Assembly: GCF_026586795.1 (NCBI RefSeq)
Contig: NZ_JAPFGY010000002.1
Coordinates: forward strand, 62,001 to 126,000
Source: Erythrobacter sp. WG
GTDB taxonomy: Bacteria > Pseudomonadota > Alphaproteobacteria > Sphingomonadales > Sphingomonadaceae
Direction of reading: 5' to 3'
Length of the DNA stretch: 64,000 nucleotides
The notes below the pieces were generated by a model. It saw only the letters and a program-made list of their open reading frames with translations, had not been told where the DNA came from and made no database searches. Below, in pieces: positions 51,092-57,721 of the stretch; position 1 is the first letter of the stretch; each line of letters begins with the position of its first letter. Made by a program: the position numbers and the translations under genes.

Positions 51092-51715
51092 CTACCCCCG
51101 CGTGCTTACCCCGTTACCCGCCGCGACCTCGTCCAGTTCCTCGAGGATCGCGCGGTGGGCGACATCGTCGTCGGTCGAACGCCGGGGGATCGCCCCGTTG
51201 GCGAGCATTTCGGTCAGCGTCGCGCGGGCGCGGCCGACGCGGCTCTTGATGGTGCCGACCGCGCACCCGCAGATCGCCGCCGCCTCCTCGTAGGAGAACC
51301 CGCCCGCACCCACCAGCAGCAGCGCCTCGCGCCGTTCGGCCGGCAAGGTCAACAACGCCCGGTGCAAGTCGGAGAGGTGGAGCGGCTCCTCCTGCCCGGC
51401 GGGCGCGGTGAGGATGCGCTCGGCCACGCCTTCGTCATATTCGCCGCGGAAACGGTTCCTGCGCATATCGGTGAGGTAGGCATTGCGCAGGATCACGAAG
51501 GTCCAGGCGCGCATCGAGGTGCCGGGCTCGAACCGGTCCTGCGCCGCCCACGCCTTGAGCAAAGTCTCCTGCACCAGATCGTCGGCGAGGTCGGGCCGGC
51601 CGCACAGGCCCCGCGCGAAGGCGCGCAGGTGCGGGACGACCTGCGTCAGCTCGCGCTTGAAGTCGATTTGCTCCGCGGCCGATCGCGAAGTCTCGGGCCG
51701 GCCGCCATCGGTCAT
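51092..51715 (-). CDS. ecfG: ECF sigma factor EcfG (general stress response)
   Basis: 207-residue sigma-70 family ECF factor. Region 2 reads HLRAFARGLCGRPDLADDLVQETLLKAW...RAWTFVILRNAYLTDMRR and region 4 LTLPAERREALLLVGAGGFSYEEAAAICGCAVGTIKSRVGRAR. Gene neighbours nepR and phyR identify it as EcfG, which recognises GGAAC...CGTT promoters. Its ATG overlaps the nepR stop by four bases, coupling sigma factor and anti-sigma factor synthesis. Confidence 0.95.
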   Translation of the reverse strand: MTDGGRPETSRSAAEQIDFKRELTQVVPHLRAFARGLCGRPDLADDLVQETLLKAWAAQDRFEPGTSMRAWTFVILRNAYLTDMRRNRFRGEYDEGVAERILTAPAGQEEPLHLSDLHRALLTLPAERREALLLVGAGGFSYEEAAAICGCAVGTIKSRVGRARATLTEMLANGAIPRRSTDDDVAHRAILEELDEVAAGNGVSTRG

Positions 51716-51921
51716 GTGTCGGCGTCCTTGCGGTCACCCGTGCCGCGCGTCGGGGGCACGCCCTCGAGCCTGTCGAGCAGGTCCTTGAAACTGTCCGGCA
51801 GCGCTTCCTCGACCACCGCATCATAGAGCTGCTTGAGCCCATCGGCCCATTCCGGAGCCCGGCCTCGGCCGGTCCCCTCGCGGCTGTCGCCGTCTGCGCC
51901 CTGTGACTGATTGGAGGCCAT
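51712..51921 (-). CDS. nepR: Anti-sigma factor NepR
   Basis: Small 69-residue anti-sigma factor that sequesters EcfG until phosphorylated PhyR takes it over. The conserved helix pair is visible as LKQLYDAVVEEALPDSFKDLLDRLE; the flanks are disordered. It is the first gene of the nepR-ecfG unit, transcribed from an EcfG-type promoter about 125 bp upstream. Confidence 0.93.
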   Translation of the reverse strand: MASNQSQGADGDSREGTGRGRAPEWADGLKQLYDAVVEEALPDSFKDLLDRLEGVPPTRGTGDRKDADT

Positions 51922-52001
51922 TGTCGCTTAAATCGTCCCTGATCCCGTCGTGCCGGCTTCCCCAACCGGAGCCGAGGTCGCTGCGGAAGGGGCGACGCAA
52001 T

Positions 52002-53837
52002 ATGCTGTGCCCAATTCCCGACGAGCGGAGTTTGGACGATTCAGCAACGATGCGCTACCAGTTTGGTTCCCCCACCCGCCGCACAGGATCATCCGTCATC
52101 GAGCCCGCCCTTGTTTCGTCCGCGAATGACCCTGCCGCTCCGCCCCCGGGGAGCGCAGGGAGGGCCCGGCGCTGGCTGGTGCTCTACCCGCGCGCGATCC
52201 CGCTGGCGATCTTCCTCGCCATCGCCGCGATCACCGCGCTGTCGGTCTTTGCGATCGAGAGCAATGCCCGCGCCCGCGAGGGTGCGCAGATGCGCGCCTA
52301 TGCTCAAGGGGTGGCCGCCGCGCTCGACCGCAGCGGCAGCGGCTTTGCCTCCTACCTCAGGGCGGGCGCGGCGCTGTTCGCGAGCCTTGGCGAGGTCAGC
52401 CCCGAAACCTTCGACAATTTCGTGCGGGTGCTGAAGCTCAACACCGAATATTCGGGCGCGGAGGGGATCGGCTGGATTCCGGTGATCGAGGCGCGCGATC
52501 TCCCCGCCTTCATCGCCGCGACCCGCAAGAGCCAGCCCTCCTATCCCGATGTCTATCCCGCCCCTACCAGCAGCATCGGGCGGATCGCGCCGGTGGCGAT
52601 GTTCGCCCCAGCGACGGCCTTGAACCGCCGCGCGCTCGGCTACGATATGTATTCCGATCCCAATCGCGCCGCGGCGATGGCAGAGGCCGAGCTCAATCTC
52701 CGGCCCGCCGCCTCGGGCCGCATCATCCTGATGCAGGAGACCAGCGGCACGGCGCCTGCCTTTGCGATCTATATGCCGGTGGTGCGCGGCAACCGGCTCG
52801 CCGGCTTTGTCTATACCCCGCTGCGCGCGCGCGAATTCCTCTCCGCAGCGATCGACCGACAGGGGGAGCATCGCTTCGGCGTGCGGCTTTATGACGGCGA
52901 GGTCGATACCGGCCACCTGCTGGTTGCCCGATCGGTCGGCGGGGCGCCGCGCGCGACGGTCGAGCAGGCGGTCAACATCGCCGATCGCAAGCTGATGCTG
53001 GTGGTCGAGAACGGCGAGGCCAATGTCCTCTCGCCCCTGTCGATGGTGACGCTGGTGTTCGGCCTGGCGCTCGCCAGCCTGCTGATGCTGCTCGCGCGGC
53101 TGCTCACCCAGCAGGCCTTCGAGGACCAGGCGCGGCTCGCCTTCTTCGAGGAGCAGCACTCGATCAGGAACTCGCTGACCCGCGAATTGAACCACCGGGT
53201 CAAGAACACGCTCGCCAACGTGCTGTCGATCCTGTCGCTGACCCGGCGCCGGGCGACGAGCCTCGACGACTTCGCCGACAGCCTCCAGGGTCGCATCCGC
53301 GCGCTGTCGGCGACGCACGACCTGCTGACCGTCACCGAATGGGGCACCACCCCGATCCGCGCGGTCATCGAGGCCGAGCTCCAGCATTTCCGCGAGGTGC
53401 TGGGCGAGGACATCCTGCTGGAGGGGCCGGATCTGGAGCTTGCCCCCAACGACGCGCTGTCCTTCGGCCTCGCGGTTCACGAACTGGCGACCAACGCGGC
53501 GAAATACGGCGCGCTGAGCGTGCCCGGCGGACAGGTGACGATCCGCTGGCAGCGCGGGCCCGAGCGAGCCGGCGATCCGAGCGGCGAGGCTGCCGGCGAA
53601 ATCAGCTGGGCCGAGGTCGAATGGCAGGAGGTCGGCGGGCCCCCGGTCGCCGCCGATCGCCGCCGCGGGTTCGGCACCGATCTCATCGAGAAGGTCGTCG
53701 CCCACGAGCTGCGCCAGCCGGTAAAGCTCGACTTCGCCCCCGGCGGCGTGCGCTGCGTGCTGCGGGTTCCGGTCCGGCGGCCCGTGGGGTTCCGGATCAG
53801 GGAGAGAGAACGCGACCGGCGGGTGCGGAAGCCCTAG
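52002..53837 (+). CDS. CHASE-domain sensor histidine kinase (HisKA_2/HWE type)
   Basis: Probable input kinase for PhyR. 611 residues: membrane helix (about 60-85), a periplasmic CHASE domain (about 95-330) containing LNTEYSGAEGIGWIPV and RALGYDMYSDPNR, a second helix near 350, then a HisKA_2-type kinase with His398 in ELNHRVKNTLANVLSI and the ATPase motif HELATNAAKYGAL. ATG 52002 is preferred for its AAGGGG ribosome-binding site; ATG 52050 is the alternative. It lies between nepR-ecfG and phyR. The signal sensed is unknown. Confidence 0.9.
   Translation: MLCPIPDERSLDDSATMRYQFGSPTRRTGSSVIEPALVSSANDPAAPPPGSAGRARRWLVLYPRAIPLAIFLAIAAITALSVFAIESNARAREGAQMRAYAQGVAAALDRSGSGFASYLRAGAALFASLGEVSPETFDNFVRVLKLNTEYSGAEGIGWIPVIEARDLPAFIAATRKSQPSYPDVYPAPTSSIGRIAPVAMFAPATALNRRALGYDMYSDPNRAAAMAEAELNLRPAASGRIILMQETSGTAPAFAIYMPVVRGNRLAGFVYTPLRAREFLSAAIDRQGEHRFGVRLYDGEVDTGHLLVARSVGGAPRATVEQAVNIADRKLMLVVENGEANVLSPLSMVTLVFGLALASLLMLLARLLTQQAFEDQARLAFFEEQHSIRNSLTRELNHRVKNTLANVLSILSLTRRRATSLDDFADSLQGRIRALSATHDLLTVTEWGTTPIRAVIEAELQHFREVLGEDILLEGPDLELAPNDALSFGLAVHELATNAAKYGALSVPGGQVTIRWQRGPERAGDPSGEAAGEISWAEVEWQEVGGPPVAADRRRGFGTDLIEKVVAHELRQPVKLDFAPGGVRCVLRVPVRRPVGFRIRERERDRRVRKP
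52046..52070 (-). promoter_or_regulatory. EcfG-dependent promoter of nepR-ecfG
   Basis: On the minus strand GGAAC (52066-52070) is followed after 16 bases by CGTT (52046-52049), an exact match to the alphaproteobacterial general-stress consensus GGAAC-N16/17-CGTT. It would make ecfG autoregulated. It lies inside the 5' end of the divergent kinase gene. Confidence 0.8.
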
Positions 53838-53841
53838 TTTT

Positions 53842-53972
53842 CGGCCACCTTCGGTGGCGCAGACCGCCCGCCCGGCCTCCCCACCCGGCCACCAATAGTA
53901 CCACTATGATGTGGTGGCCGGGTGGGGAGGCGGGGCGGGCGGTCTGCATTGCGCGTCAGCGCGATCGCATCA
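53842..53972. repeat. Palindromic element, copy A
   Basis: A 36-base arm (53859-53894) pairs with 53912-53947, flanked on one side by the small hairpin CCACCTTCGGTGG and on the other by GCGCGTCAGCGCG. Two further copies are at 55050 and 57598. The element fills the gap between the kinase stop and the phyR stop, and the phyR stop codon is its last triplet. Confidence 0.85.
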
Positions 53973-54758
53973 CAACGGCCTTGTCGATCCGAAGAACAGC
54001 GCCTGGCTGATCGCCGCGCGCACCGTCGCTTCCTGGAAGGGCTTGGTGACGAGATAGGTCGGCTCGGGCCGGTCGCCGGTCAGCAGGCGTTCCGGGTAGG
54101 CGGTGATGAAGATCACCGGCATCGTGCCGACCGAGAGGATGTCGTCCACCGCATCGAGGCCCGAGGAACCGTCGGCAAGCTGGATGTCGGCGAGCACCAG
54201 CCCCGGCATCGCAGACTCCACCGCCTCGCGCGCCTGGGTGCGGGTCGCGGCCGTGCCGCTCACCGTGTGGCCGAGGCTGGTGACAAGGTCTTCCAGCTGC
54301 ATCGCGATCAGCGGCTCGTCCTCGATGATGAGCACGCTCGTCGCCTGCTCGCGGTCGATCTCGCCGATCGCCTCGGCGACGAGGGCGGCGACCTCGTCGG
54401 GCGTGCGGTCGAGGATTTGGGCCGCTTCGGGGATGGTGAAGTCCTCGAGCGTGGTCAGCAGCAGCGCCTGGCGCGCGGGCGGGGTGATGACGCCGAGCCG
54501 CGCCTGGGCGCCGGCCTCGTGCTCGCTCGCGGCATCGGCCAGCTCCGTGCTGCCCGATCCGCTCGCCCACAGCTTCCCGAAGGCGCGGTAGAGCGGCACG
54601 CGCCCGCCCGCGAGGCTCGCCTTCAGCGCCTCGTCGGCCAGCGCGGCTTCCAGCATCTCGCGCACATAGGCATCCCCGGTGGTCTGCGAGCCCGTGAGCG
54701 CGCGGGCGTAGCGGCGCAGGAAGGGCAGGTTGGCGGCGATCTGGCTGGCAAGGGACAT
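53970..54758 (-). CDS. phyR: General stress response regulator PhyR
   Basis: Anti-anti-sigma factor: its N-terminal sigma-like domain (residues 1-135, with LPFLRRYARALTGSQ and LTTLEDFTIPEAAQIL) binds NepR once the C-terminal receiver is phosphorylated. Receiver residues are Glu146/Asp147, phosphoacceptor Asp191 (LVLADIQLADG) and Lys239 (LVTKPF), with the FITAYPERLL motif of FAT-GUY receivers. 262 residues, full length. The region upstream holds a divergent small-RNA gene. Confidence 0.96.
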   Translation of the reverse strand: MSLASQIAANLPFLRRYARALTGSQTTGDAYVREMLEAALADEALKASLAGGRVPLYRAFGKLWASGSGSTELADAASEHEAGAQARLGVITPPARQALLLTTLEDFTIPEAAQILDRTPDEVAALVAEAIGEIDREQATSVLIIEDEPLIAMQLEDLVTSLGHTVSGTAATRTQAREAVESAMPGLVLADIQLADGSSGLDAVDDILSVGTMPVIFITAYPERLLTGDRPEPTYLVTKPFQEATVRAAISQALFFGSTRPL

Positions 54759-54923: not shown

Positions 54924-54948
54924 GGAACCGTTGCGCGAGCCGGTCATT
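54924..54948 (+). promoter_or_regulatory. EcfG-like promoter of the small RNA
   Basis: GGAAC (54924-54928), then 16 bases, then CATT (54945-54948). The -35 box is perfect, and the -10 box differs from CGTT at one position. It faces away from phyR and toward the predicted small RNA about seven bases downstream. Confidence 0.55.
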
Positions 54949-54954
54949 CTAGCT

Positions 54955-55043
54955 TTGTCACCGCCGAGACCCCCCTCCCGTCCAAGCGGCTGGTGATACG
55001 ATCCCGAAAGGCCTCCGTTGTGTATGCAACGGAGGCCTTTTTT
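54955..55043 (+). ncRNA. Probable GsrN-like stress-response small RNA
   Basis: About 89 nt with no open frame. A 5' hairpin (TCACC-GCCG at 54958-54966 pairing with CGGC-T-GGTGA at 54987-54996) exposes a 20-base loop rich in C (ACCCCCCTCCCGTCC). It is followed by a terminator hairpin (GGCCTCCGTTG/CAACGGAGGCC, then six T). Caulobacter GsrN, a sigma-T-dependent small RNA, also uses a C-rich 5' loop to pair with targets and ends in an intrinsic terminator. Position next to phyR and the EcfG-like promoter support the same class. No experiment is implied. Confidence 0.6.
55008..55043 (+). terminator. Rho-independent terminator of the small RNA
   Basis: Eleven-base-pair GC-rich stem (GGCCTCCGTTG with CAACGGAGGCC), six-base loop TGTATG and a run of six T. 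No protein gene on this strand precedes it within 1 kb. Confidence 0.88.
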
Positions 55044-55049
55044 CGTTGG

Positions 55050-55178
55050 GGCCATCTTCGGTGACGCAGACCGCCCGCCCCGCCTCCCCACTCGGCCACC
55101 ACAGCATGGTGTACCATTGGTGGCCGGGTGGGGAGGCGTGGCGGGCGGTCAGCATCGCGCGTCAACGCGATCGCGTCA
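55050..55178. repeat. Palindromic element, copy B
   Basis: Same architecture and orientation as copy A: CATCTTCGGTGACGCAGACC on the left, long arms GCCCGCC...CGGCCACCA / TGGTGGCCG...GGGCGG, and GCGCGTCAACGCGATCGCGTCA on the right. Again the last three bases are the stop codon (on the minus strand) of the adjacent gene, here the GNAT-like gene. Confidence 0.85.
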
Positions 55179-56381
55179 CCCGAGCGTCTTCTCGTAGATC
55201 GCGTATTCGCGGTTGATTTTGCTCTGGATCGTGTCGGCGATCGCCACCATCCCCTGGTTGTCCTCGAGGATCCAGCCGATCTCGCCGCGCGTCGATCCGT
55301 AGCGGGTGTTCGCATTGTGCCGGATCTGCTCGATCATCATGAAGGCGAGCTGGCTGGCGAGGCGGCTGTTGTGGAGCTCCTTCAGCACCCCCATCAGCGG
55401 CACGCGCATCCCTGCGCCCTTAGGGTGGCGCAGCCAGCGCAGCATATGCAGCCAGCCGAAGGGGAACAGCTTGCCCCGAATCCGTGCCAGCGCCGCGTTG
55501 ATGTCGGGCCAGGTGAGCATGAAGGCGACCGGCCGCCCGTCGACCTCGGCGATCATGTTGAGATCCTCGAAGATCAAGGGCCGCAGCTTCTTGCCCGCAT
55601 AGGCGACCTCGGCGGGCGAGAAGGGCACGAAGCCCCAGTTTTCCGACCAGGCATCGTTGAGGATGCCGAGAATTGTCGCCACTTCCGCGTCCCAATCGGC
55701 CTTGCGCACCGGCCGCACCGTGATCCGCGCGTTCTTGTGCCCGGATTGCACGATCCGCTGCACCAGCGGCGGGAAGGGCTTCGAGATATCGAGATCGTAG
55801 GTGTAGAGCGTCTTGGCGCGCGCGTAGCCCGCCGCCTCGATCCACGCGGCATAATGCGCGGGGTGGTGGCCCATCATCAGCATCGGCGCATGGTCCTGCC
55901 CGCGCACCAGCAGGCCCGGCTCCTCCCAGATCGACAGCGAGATCGGGCCGAGCGCGCGGGTCATGCCCTGCTGCGCCAGCCAGCCCTCGGCAGCGGTGAG
56001 GAGCGCGCGGGCCGTCGCCTCGTCCTCCGCGTCGAAATAGCCGAAGAAGCCGGTGCCGGGGCCGAAGCCCTGGGCAGCCGGCACGGCGAGCGCGAGTTCG
56101 TCGATATGGGCCGAGATGCGCCCCACCGCGCGGCCTGCGCGCCTGGCGATGAACAGCTGCACCCGCGCATGGCCGAAGAAGGGGTTCTTGCCCGGATCGA
56201 CCAGCTCCAGCTGTTCCGAGCGCAGCTGCGGGACATAGTGCTCCAGCCGCGCGGAAAAGGCGCGGCCCAGATCGACGAAGGCGGCCCGGCCGCGCTTGTC
56301 GGTGACGGGTTCGATCACTATCTCGCCTGTGTGGCTTGCCGCATCCGTCACCGGGTCGTCCTCGTCATTGCGCTTGGTCAA
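55176..56381 (-). CDS. GNAT-fold protein of unknown function
   Basis: 401-residue cytosolic protein; relatives in alphaproteobacteria are often labelled N-acetyltransferase or, misleadingly, dATP pyrophosphohydrolase. It has an N-terminal GNAT-like half (FFGHARVQLFIARRAGRAVGRI, GFFGYFDAEDE) and a C-terminal half with SENWGFVPFSPAEVAYAGK and VAFMLTWPDIN. No acyl-CoA loop is clear. The start ATG 56381 gives a charged tail of about 20 residues before the domain. Function unknown. Confidence 0.75.
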   Translation of the reverse strand: MTKRNDEDDPVTDAASHTGEIVIEPVTDKRGRAAFVDLGRAFSARLEHYVPQLRSEQLELVDPGKNPFFGHARVQLFIARRAGRAVGRISAHIDELALAVPAAQGFGPGTGFFGYFDAEDEATARALLTAAEGWLAQQGMTRALGPISLSIWEEPGLLVRGQDHAPMLMMGHHPAHYAAWIEAAGYARAKTLYTYDLDISKPFPPLVQRIVQSGHKNARITVRPVRKADWDAEVATILGILNDAWSENWGFVPFSPAEVAYAGKKLRPLIFEDLNMIAEVDGRPVAFMLTWPDINAALARIRGKLFPFGWLHMLRWLRHPKGAGMRVPLMGVLKELHNSRLASQLAFMMIEQIRHNANTRYGSTRGEIGWILEDNQGMVAIADTIQSKINREYAIYEKTLG

Positions 56382-57597: not shown

Positions 57598-57721
57598 GGT
57601 CGCGCTGACGCGCGACGCAGACCCCCCGCCCCGCCCCCCACCCGGCCACCAATAGTACCACTACGTTATGGTGGCCGGGTGGGGAGGCGGGGCGGGGGGT
57701 CTGCGCCACCGAAGGTGGCTC
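57598..57721. repeat. Palindromic element, copy C (inverted)
   Basis: The long arms (57617-57651 and 57669-57704) match copies A and B, but the outer hairpins are exchanged: CGCGCTGACGCGCG now at the left and CCACCGAAGGTGG at the right, so the element is inserted in the opposite orientation. It again lies between two converging genes, with the GCGCGCTGACG end next to the plus-strand stop. Confidence 0.85.

Follow-up and report, generated by a model that had tools for sequence, protein, structure and literature searches.

The closest described counterpart of the RNA reported here is GsrN of Caulobacter crescentus (CCNA_R0081). In the portion of PMC5869019 drawn on here, its homologues outside the Caulobacteraceae were predicted from three signs, namely intergenic transcription (not in two of the species), an EcfG site and a place near the general stress response (GSR) locus, and the same portion reports Erythrobacter litoralis as having no apparent gsrN-like gene. 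Two further described RNAs come into the comparison. The alphaR8 family (SisA-D and MmgR) carries, according to the part of PMC12559287 used here, UUUCCUCCCU in a single-stranded stretch, and most of its copies lie by an FGase gene. The Caulobacter sRNA CC1840 (Rfam RF01521) is, judging from its 95-nt length and its place in a table of PMC5869019 (again the part used here), probably CCNA_R0044 and not GsrN.

We analyzed a 64,000-nucleotide stretch of DNA from Erythrobacter sp. WG (the window), in which a preliminary description had placed a probable GsrN-type RNA of about 89 nt between phyR and copy B of a palindromic element, defined by an EcfG-like promoter, a C-rich loop on a 5' hairpin, and a strong terminator. 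All of these parts were found again, and the predicted length (~89 nt, with the start deduced) agrees. The features of the RNA and its surroundings are as follows:

54924..54948, + strand: EcfG-type promoter, GGAAC (-35), 16-nt spacer and CATT (-10) (motif match, conserved in relatives)
54953..55043, + strand: predicted small RNA (start deduced, ~54953-54955; fold and conservation)
54956..54998, + strand: 5' hairpin (fold and 55-relative alignment)
54971..54981, + strand: loop core CCCCCUCCCGU, proposed seed (invariant in 55/55 aligned sequences)
54999..55005, + strand: unpaired linker CGAUCCC (6 of 7 positions at least 90% conserved in the alignment)
55006..55043, + strand: intrinsic terminator (stem 55006-55041, T's up to 55043)
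53970..54758, - strand: phyR, response regulator / anti-anti-sigma factor (Pfam and NCBIfam)
51092..51715, - strand: ecfG-type sigma factor gene (Pfam, ECF-type)
just upstream of 51092..51715: nepR-like reading frame, start not fixed
52046..52070, - strand: second EcfG-type promoter match (GGAAC-N16-CRTT), upstream of nepR-ecfG
51903..53837, + strand: HWE-family sensor histidine kinase gene with CHASE domain, PhyK-like by position (Pfam)
55176-56381, - strand: convergent downstream neighbor, 401 aa
53853-53954, 55060-55160 (copy B) and 57610-57710: near-palindromic element, ~100 bp

The predicted fold of 54953-55043 has an energy of -43.7 kcal/mol (z -6.8), and none of 200 shuffled sequences was equally stable. 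In this fold the terminator stem has 16 pairs and the loop region of the 5' hairpin is ACCCCCCUCCCGUCCAAG, within which the bases CCCCCUCCC have predicted unpaired probabilities of 0.94-0.99; the loop core CCCCCUCCCGU contains the anti-Shine-Dalgarno core CCUCC. The promoter motif alone is weak evidence, since the two GGAAC-N16-CRTT sites in the window (this promoter and the minus-strand one; 0.52 expected) are matched in number by 11 of 100 shuffles of the window. A promoter and terminator scanner that seeks sigma-70 promoters listed neither the EcfG promoter nor the terminator of the RNA, and no Rfam family claims the RNA at threshold.

In the window the RNA and phyR are divergent, and the HWE kinase gene is situated between phyR and the ecfG-type sigma gene. 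The genome also encodes a second PhyR-like protein (G000:C54:100268-101002, locus L234) that is 47% identical, and it has six copies of the near-palindromic element, three of them within 4 kb in the window. The 401-aa downstream neighbor, for which Pfam and NCBIfam give no match at E<=0.001, is present in 92 of 96 loci that hold the RNA sequence (missing in 4) and is convergent with the RNA in all 92, separated from it by some 320-940 nt in many of them; in the window, where this neighbor is the next gene, the RNA is thus no leader.

How widely is the RNA distributed? Among 298 genomes of the family, blastn with 54950-55043 found it at E<1e-5 in 120, and a covariance model (R1), a check proposed in the preliminary description, matched 118 at E<1e-10 and 123 at E<=0.001, the latter in 42 of 96 genera. 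Of the five matches weaker than E<1e-10, those in G263 and G270 are cut by contig ends; the others are in G134, G153 and G288. At E<=0.001 R1 has no match in 175 of the 298 genomes, including G223, which is of the same genus. A class-wide R1 search of 385 genomes gave four strong matches, all in the family of the window and one of them its own genome. Nine weaker class-wide matches (L159-L167) resemble other terminators beside coding ends, except L162, in which a weak match near 1500-1580 has a CCCCCCCUCCC loop directly after the stop of a gene, an arrangement that presumably resembles the DUF1127-linked CcsR.

The RNA sequence is divergent from phyR, on its upstream side, in all 96 loci that hold it. 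These are three copies of the window's own locus, 24 loci fetched by phyR and 69 fetched by the RNA, with some species present in both fetched sets; because the 69 were fetched by the RNA itself, the linkage to phyR is not circular for them. In the first 31 phyR loci (L005-L035, from records of Erythrobacter, Porphyrobacter, Altererythrobacter, Novosphingobium and kin) the RNA is upstream and divergent in every one, found by blastn in 24 and by R1 in L028-L033 and L035 (32.6 to 59.6 bits); the loop is altered in several Novosphingobium. The RNA and phyR are 137 to 286 nt apart except in 14 loci (L013, L086, L092, L094, L098, L100, L101, L103, L106, L122, L134, L137, L139 and L143), which have ~800 bp of extra DNA between them and a distance of 962 to 1053 nt. 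The promoter keeps its place as well: GGAAC is present in 86 of 86 unique regions upstream of the RNA (from 94 loci), with a C[AGT]TT box after a 16-nt spacer in 84, and stands 33 nt before the hairpin in 77, and the spacer and flanks are mostly variable among relatives. Shuffled upstream regions contain a promoter match in 0.4% of cases.

An alignment of relatives was prepared as follows: 13 loci were dropped (ten that lack a run of at least four T's after the stem, so that termination is less clear there, and the others for N, truncation or a contig end), removal of identical rows left 74 sequences, removal of rows more than 93% identical left 56, and L022, whose 3' end ran on, was excluded by hand to give 55. 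The loop core is unchanged in 55 of 55, an invariance that applies to those 55 only, as the Novosphingobium rows with a changed loop are outside the alignment. The 11 outer pairs of the 5' hairpin are formed in 97.2% of cells, with both-side changes in only three cells, at 3 of the 11 pairs. In the terminator both-side changes occur at 12 of 14 counted pairs, a statistic that favors loci with a good T-run, since those lacking four T's had been excluded. For the whole structure 94.5% of cells are paired, and both-side changes are found at 15 of 25 pairs (shuffle mean 7.7, as high in 0 of 500), most of this covariation being located in the terminator; when the structure is slid by 1 to 3 columns, pairing drops to 37.5-53.4%. 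Conservation of the loop and stems in relatives had been set beforehand as the test on which the RNA could fail, and it came through. Comparison among genomes thus confirms, at the level of predicted features, a conserved, free-standing sRNA gene next to phyR with an EcfG promoter, a C-rich 5' loop and a terminator.

What might such an RNA do? We consider it likely that 54953-55043 (+ strand) is the gene for a small regulatory RNA that belongs to the general stress response and base-pairs via its C-rich loop. Under stress PhyR would free EcfG, and this sigma factor would probably switch on the sRNA by transcribing it from the promoter at 54924. The sRNA would then probably act on messenger RNAs through the C-rich 5' loop, for which the simplest partners would be G-rich Shine-Dalgarno regions, while the terminator stem would both end and protect it. 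We infer the transcription by EcfG and the loop pairing, and likewise the direction of regulation and every target named below; the promoter, hairpin, loop, terminator, their conservation and the phyR linkage rest on sequence and comparison. We counted in favor of this reading the fixed place of the promoter together with the divergent phyR linkage in 96 of 96 loci, the invariance of the loop beside a terminator that has both-side changes at 12 of 14 pairs, and the occurrence of EcfG-promoter RNAs with C-rich loops near phyR in Rhizobium-, Sphingomonas- and Caulobacteraceae-like loci (below). Against it we counted the 175 of 298 genomes with no match, the small number of both-side changes in the 5' hairpin, the ten loci with less clear termination, the 320-940 nt that separate the RNA from the convergent gene in many loci, and the unsupported pairing with katG.

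Two genes were considered as partners of the loop, katG, whose leader the preliminary description had suggested, and hppA, the gene for a membrane pyrophosphatase (Pfam H_PPase). The sites concerned are the following:

C22:51326-53455: katG of the same genome, outside the window
L255:1501-1521: hppA start region with a 12-nt loop complement (presumably with a thiL-like end just upstream)
GGACGGGAGGGG: hppA leader motif concerned in the candidate loop pairing

The suggestion about katG is not supported. From katG loci of 29 relatives and the genome itself, 23 were tried (7 outside the genus were left out), the 22 relatives being taken regardless of RNA presence; six had no start by the rule used, and the starts at least in L291, L299 and L305 are probably wrong. 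In this crude test 2 of 17 leaders pair at a shuffle p<=0.1 and no complementary tract is conserved, the katG of the genome itself has no conserved loop complement, and 6 of 47 leaders in the window (from crude gene calls) pair at least as well as katG. Both of these pairing tests are crude.

The genome contains the loop complement GACGGGAGGG exactly at three places, among them the antisense of the RNA itself and a site at the start of hppA. There a 12-nt perfect complement to the loop covers the Shine-Dalgarno region, with a duplex energy of -30.1 kcal/mol in this one genome; 1.15% of shuffled leaders reach that energy, and so dozens of genes would match by chance. With one mismatch allowed, GACGGGAGGG is rarer than the reversed control (291 versus 429 sites in all). 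Of 29 loop-complement sites examined, nine are at or no more than 60 nt before a plausible (candidate) start, namely hppA and 8 of the 27 one-mismatch sites examined out of 288; a motif so similar to a Shine-Dalgarno sequence would be expected to behave in this way. Among these start sites that of hppA alone matches exactly, but it is one of several near starts, and hppA is a weak candidate target, a lead only. In L273 and L274 (C2:84761 and C2:85210) one-mismatch loop complements lie 16-18 nt before each of two neighboring starts, which we take to be those of gatA and gatC look-alikes.

RNAs of similar design were sought in other groups by a positional scan for an EcfG promoter with a terminator behind it. 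Among 56 further phyR loci (L028-L084 without L034), ten of Rhizobium type (L053, L057, L066, L067, L072, L076, L080, L081, L082 and L084) have an RNA with CGGUCCCCUCCCG, and two of Sphingomonas type have another, distinct C-rich RNA. The ten Rhizobium-type RNAs and that of L050 are probably the GsrN-like RNAs of Rhizobiaceae in the Fig. 9 legend of PMC5869019 (in the part used here). Like the RNA of the window they have an EcfG promoter, a place near phyR, C-rich loops, a CCCCUCCC hairpin and a terminator, but they lie ~1.4 kb beyond the phyR end, are ~130 nt long and have an extra hairpin. Non-significant R1 matches in L050 (20.5 bits, E 0.018), L053 (14.2 bits, E 0.67) and L057 (13.4 bits, E 1.1) fall on the 3' half of this RNA, that is, on the CCCCUCCC hairpin and the terminator. 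By blastn among the collected loci the Sphingomonas form is present in 15 loci, where it lies on the upstream side of phyR at a distance of ~2 to 2.5 kb. GGAAC precedes it in all 15, and 14 copies show two C-rich loops, that of L054 being cut; this RNA is highly conserved and lacks the long T-run of a classical terminator. Its positions are, for example:

L043:1302-1471, L051:882-1013 and L068:1293-1425, - strand: Sphingomonas-form RNA, found also in 12 other loci

A class-wide scan of 60 phyR-type loci, one of them the second phyR of the window's own genome, gave seven sites that pass with a C-run; block-shuffled sequence of three times that amount gave one. Among the seven, L196 is similar to L197, L204, L206 and L208 are similar to one another, and L205 and L210 each stand alone. 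L204, L206 and L208, all of one genus (f5 g100), have a further form near phyR, in which the stems are GAGCGGACGUCCG and the C-rich loop reads CCCCAGCCCC or CCCCCAGCCCC. The candidate RNAs of the Caulobacteraceae-like loci L196 and L197 share GACGCCCCCCCGAC, and the PhyR of L196 is very close (426 bits) to PDB 3n0r, which we take to be Caulobacter PhyR. The GsrN target sites predicted in the part of PMC5869019 used here, GGGGGCGU and UCGGGGG, are complementary to the L196/L197 loop. From this complementarity and the PhyR likeness, the L196 and L197 RNAs are probably true GsrN.

Is the RNA of the window then an orthologue of GsrN and of the Rhizobium form, all descended from one ancestral GSR sRNA that has diverged almost beyond detection except for its C-run, hairpin, terminator and promoter? 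The shared logic of the locus, the promoter, the size and the C-rich 5' loop argue for common descent, as do the related Novosphingobium forms that grade away in the loop and the weak R1 matches on the CCCCUCCC hairpin and terminator of L050, L053 and L057. Those Rhizobium matches, however, are not significant and cover the second hairpin and not the 5' one, R1 has no match at E<=1 in L196 or L197, and in L196, L197 and Rhizobium the RNA is on the downstream side of phyR, whereas here it is divergent and upstream; we regard orthology as rather doubtful. Close to an even bet, though on the lower side of it, is that the RNA is mainly an anti-Shine-Dalgarno repressor or is sponge-like, nearer in action to alphaR8/SisA than to the katG-activating GsrN. 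It is favored by CCUCC within the invariant loop, by UUUCCUCCCU in the alphaR8 RNAs and the repression of many targets by SisA (in the part of PMC12559287 used here), by the 12-nt complement over the hppA Shine-Dalgarno region and by the nine of 29 sites at or shortly before starts. These points are offset by the position of the motif inside a hairpin loop and not in a single-stranded stretch, by an hppA match that comes from one genome and is equaled by 1.15% of shuffled leaders, and by a loop complement that is not enriched genome-wide, any Shine-Dalgarno-like motif falling near starts.

The remaining two explanations dispense with a trans-acting RNA. That the block sits upstream of phyR in every one of the 96 loci would suit a cis element, one that regulates the divergent phyR or a terminator that guards it, but the RNA points away from phyR, the spacing between them is not constant (137-286 or 962-1053 nt) and a mere terminator has no need of an exactly conserved loop, so that we judge such an element improbable. 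That the region is conserved is all that would favor an encoded small protein, and the one-base length differences in the loop and stems of the 55-sequence alignment argue against coding, since they would break any frame; we give this idea almost no credence. A small regulatory RNA of the stress response is the reading that we prefer.

On that preferred reading, the general stress response gains a probable post-transcriptional arm in Erythrobacter, Porphyrobacter, Altererythrobacter, Novosphingobium and kin, a large group that had been reported to be without such an RNA, to judge by the Erythrobacter litoralis entry in the part of PMC5869019 used here; that entry is in line with the preliminary description, which knew of no account of GsrN in this family. 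The literature on GsrN and on sRNAs of Sphingomonadaceae, Erythrobacter, Porphyrobacter and Novosphingobium aromaticivorans, searched mostly by title and with most subscription papers outside the search, yielded no description of the RNA, and six sRNA-type terms are all absent from the main text of the paper on the EcfG transcriptome in Sphingomonas melonis. R1 now serves as a ready covariance model, the loop gives mutagenesis an exact target, and the role of C-rich-loop sRNAs as a general part of the stress system becomes testable. A bolder view, which we think unlikely as a whole, is that an EcfG-dependent C-rich-loop sRNA is a near-standard component of the alphaproteobacterial GSR that has been repeatedly replaced or re-evolved near phyR, and that in the Erythrobacter/Novosphingobium form the invariant loop blocks Shine-Dalgarno sites, that of hppA among them. 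The four forms that it would unite (Erythrobacter/Novosphingobium, the two-loop Sphingomonas RNA, Caulobacteraceae GsrN and Rhizobium) would have hardly more in common than promoter, place and C-rich loops.

The RNA may finally be set against the described systems. Its likeness to CC1840 is a full-length alignment to 54953-55038 that includes the C-rich loop hairpin and the terminator; identity with RF01521 was rejected at 25.9 bits against a gathering cut-off of 50, the RNA site is absent from the matches of an RF01521 whole-genome search of its own genome, and that model matches 0 of 385 class genomes at E<=0.001. With alphaR8 it shares an anti-Shine-Dalgarno core and an intrinsic terminator, but it has an EcfG promoter, of which the part of PMC12559287 used here makes no mention for that family, and its loop reads CCCCCUCCCGU inside a hairpin instead of the single-stranded UUUCCUCCCU 10-mer. 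With GsrN, as portrayed in the part of PMC5869019 used here, it has in common an EcfG/SigT promoter (near-consensus here), a length of ~100 nt with an intrinsic terminator (as predicted, ten relatives having no clear T-run) and an exposed C-rich loop in a predicted 5' hairpin, with six cytosines in GsrN and a run of six here. GsrN homologues are typically by the GSR locus, although not in C. crescentus itself, and the RNA here lies by ecfG-nepR-phyR, beside phyR in 96 of 96 loci. It differs from GsrN in its loop, ACCCCCCUCCCGUCC, and its pairing with katG is not supported. The designation GsrN-type is therefore partly supported: it stands for position and architecture, criteria that the GsrN authors used mostly together with transcription data, and not for shared descent, R1 giving nothing at E<=1 in the presumed GsrN loci L196 and L197. 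By sequence criteria the RNA would work like GsrN except in homology to the presumed GsrN and in katG pairing; it is not a proven gsrN orthologue, and we group it with the EcfG-controlled C-rich-loop sRNAs.
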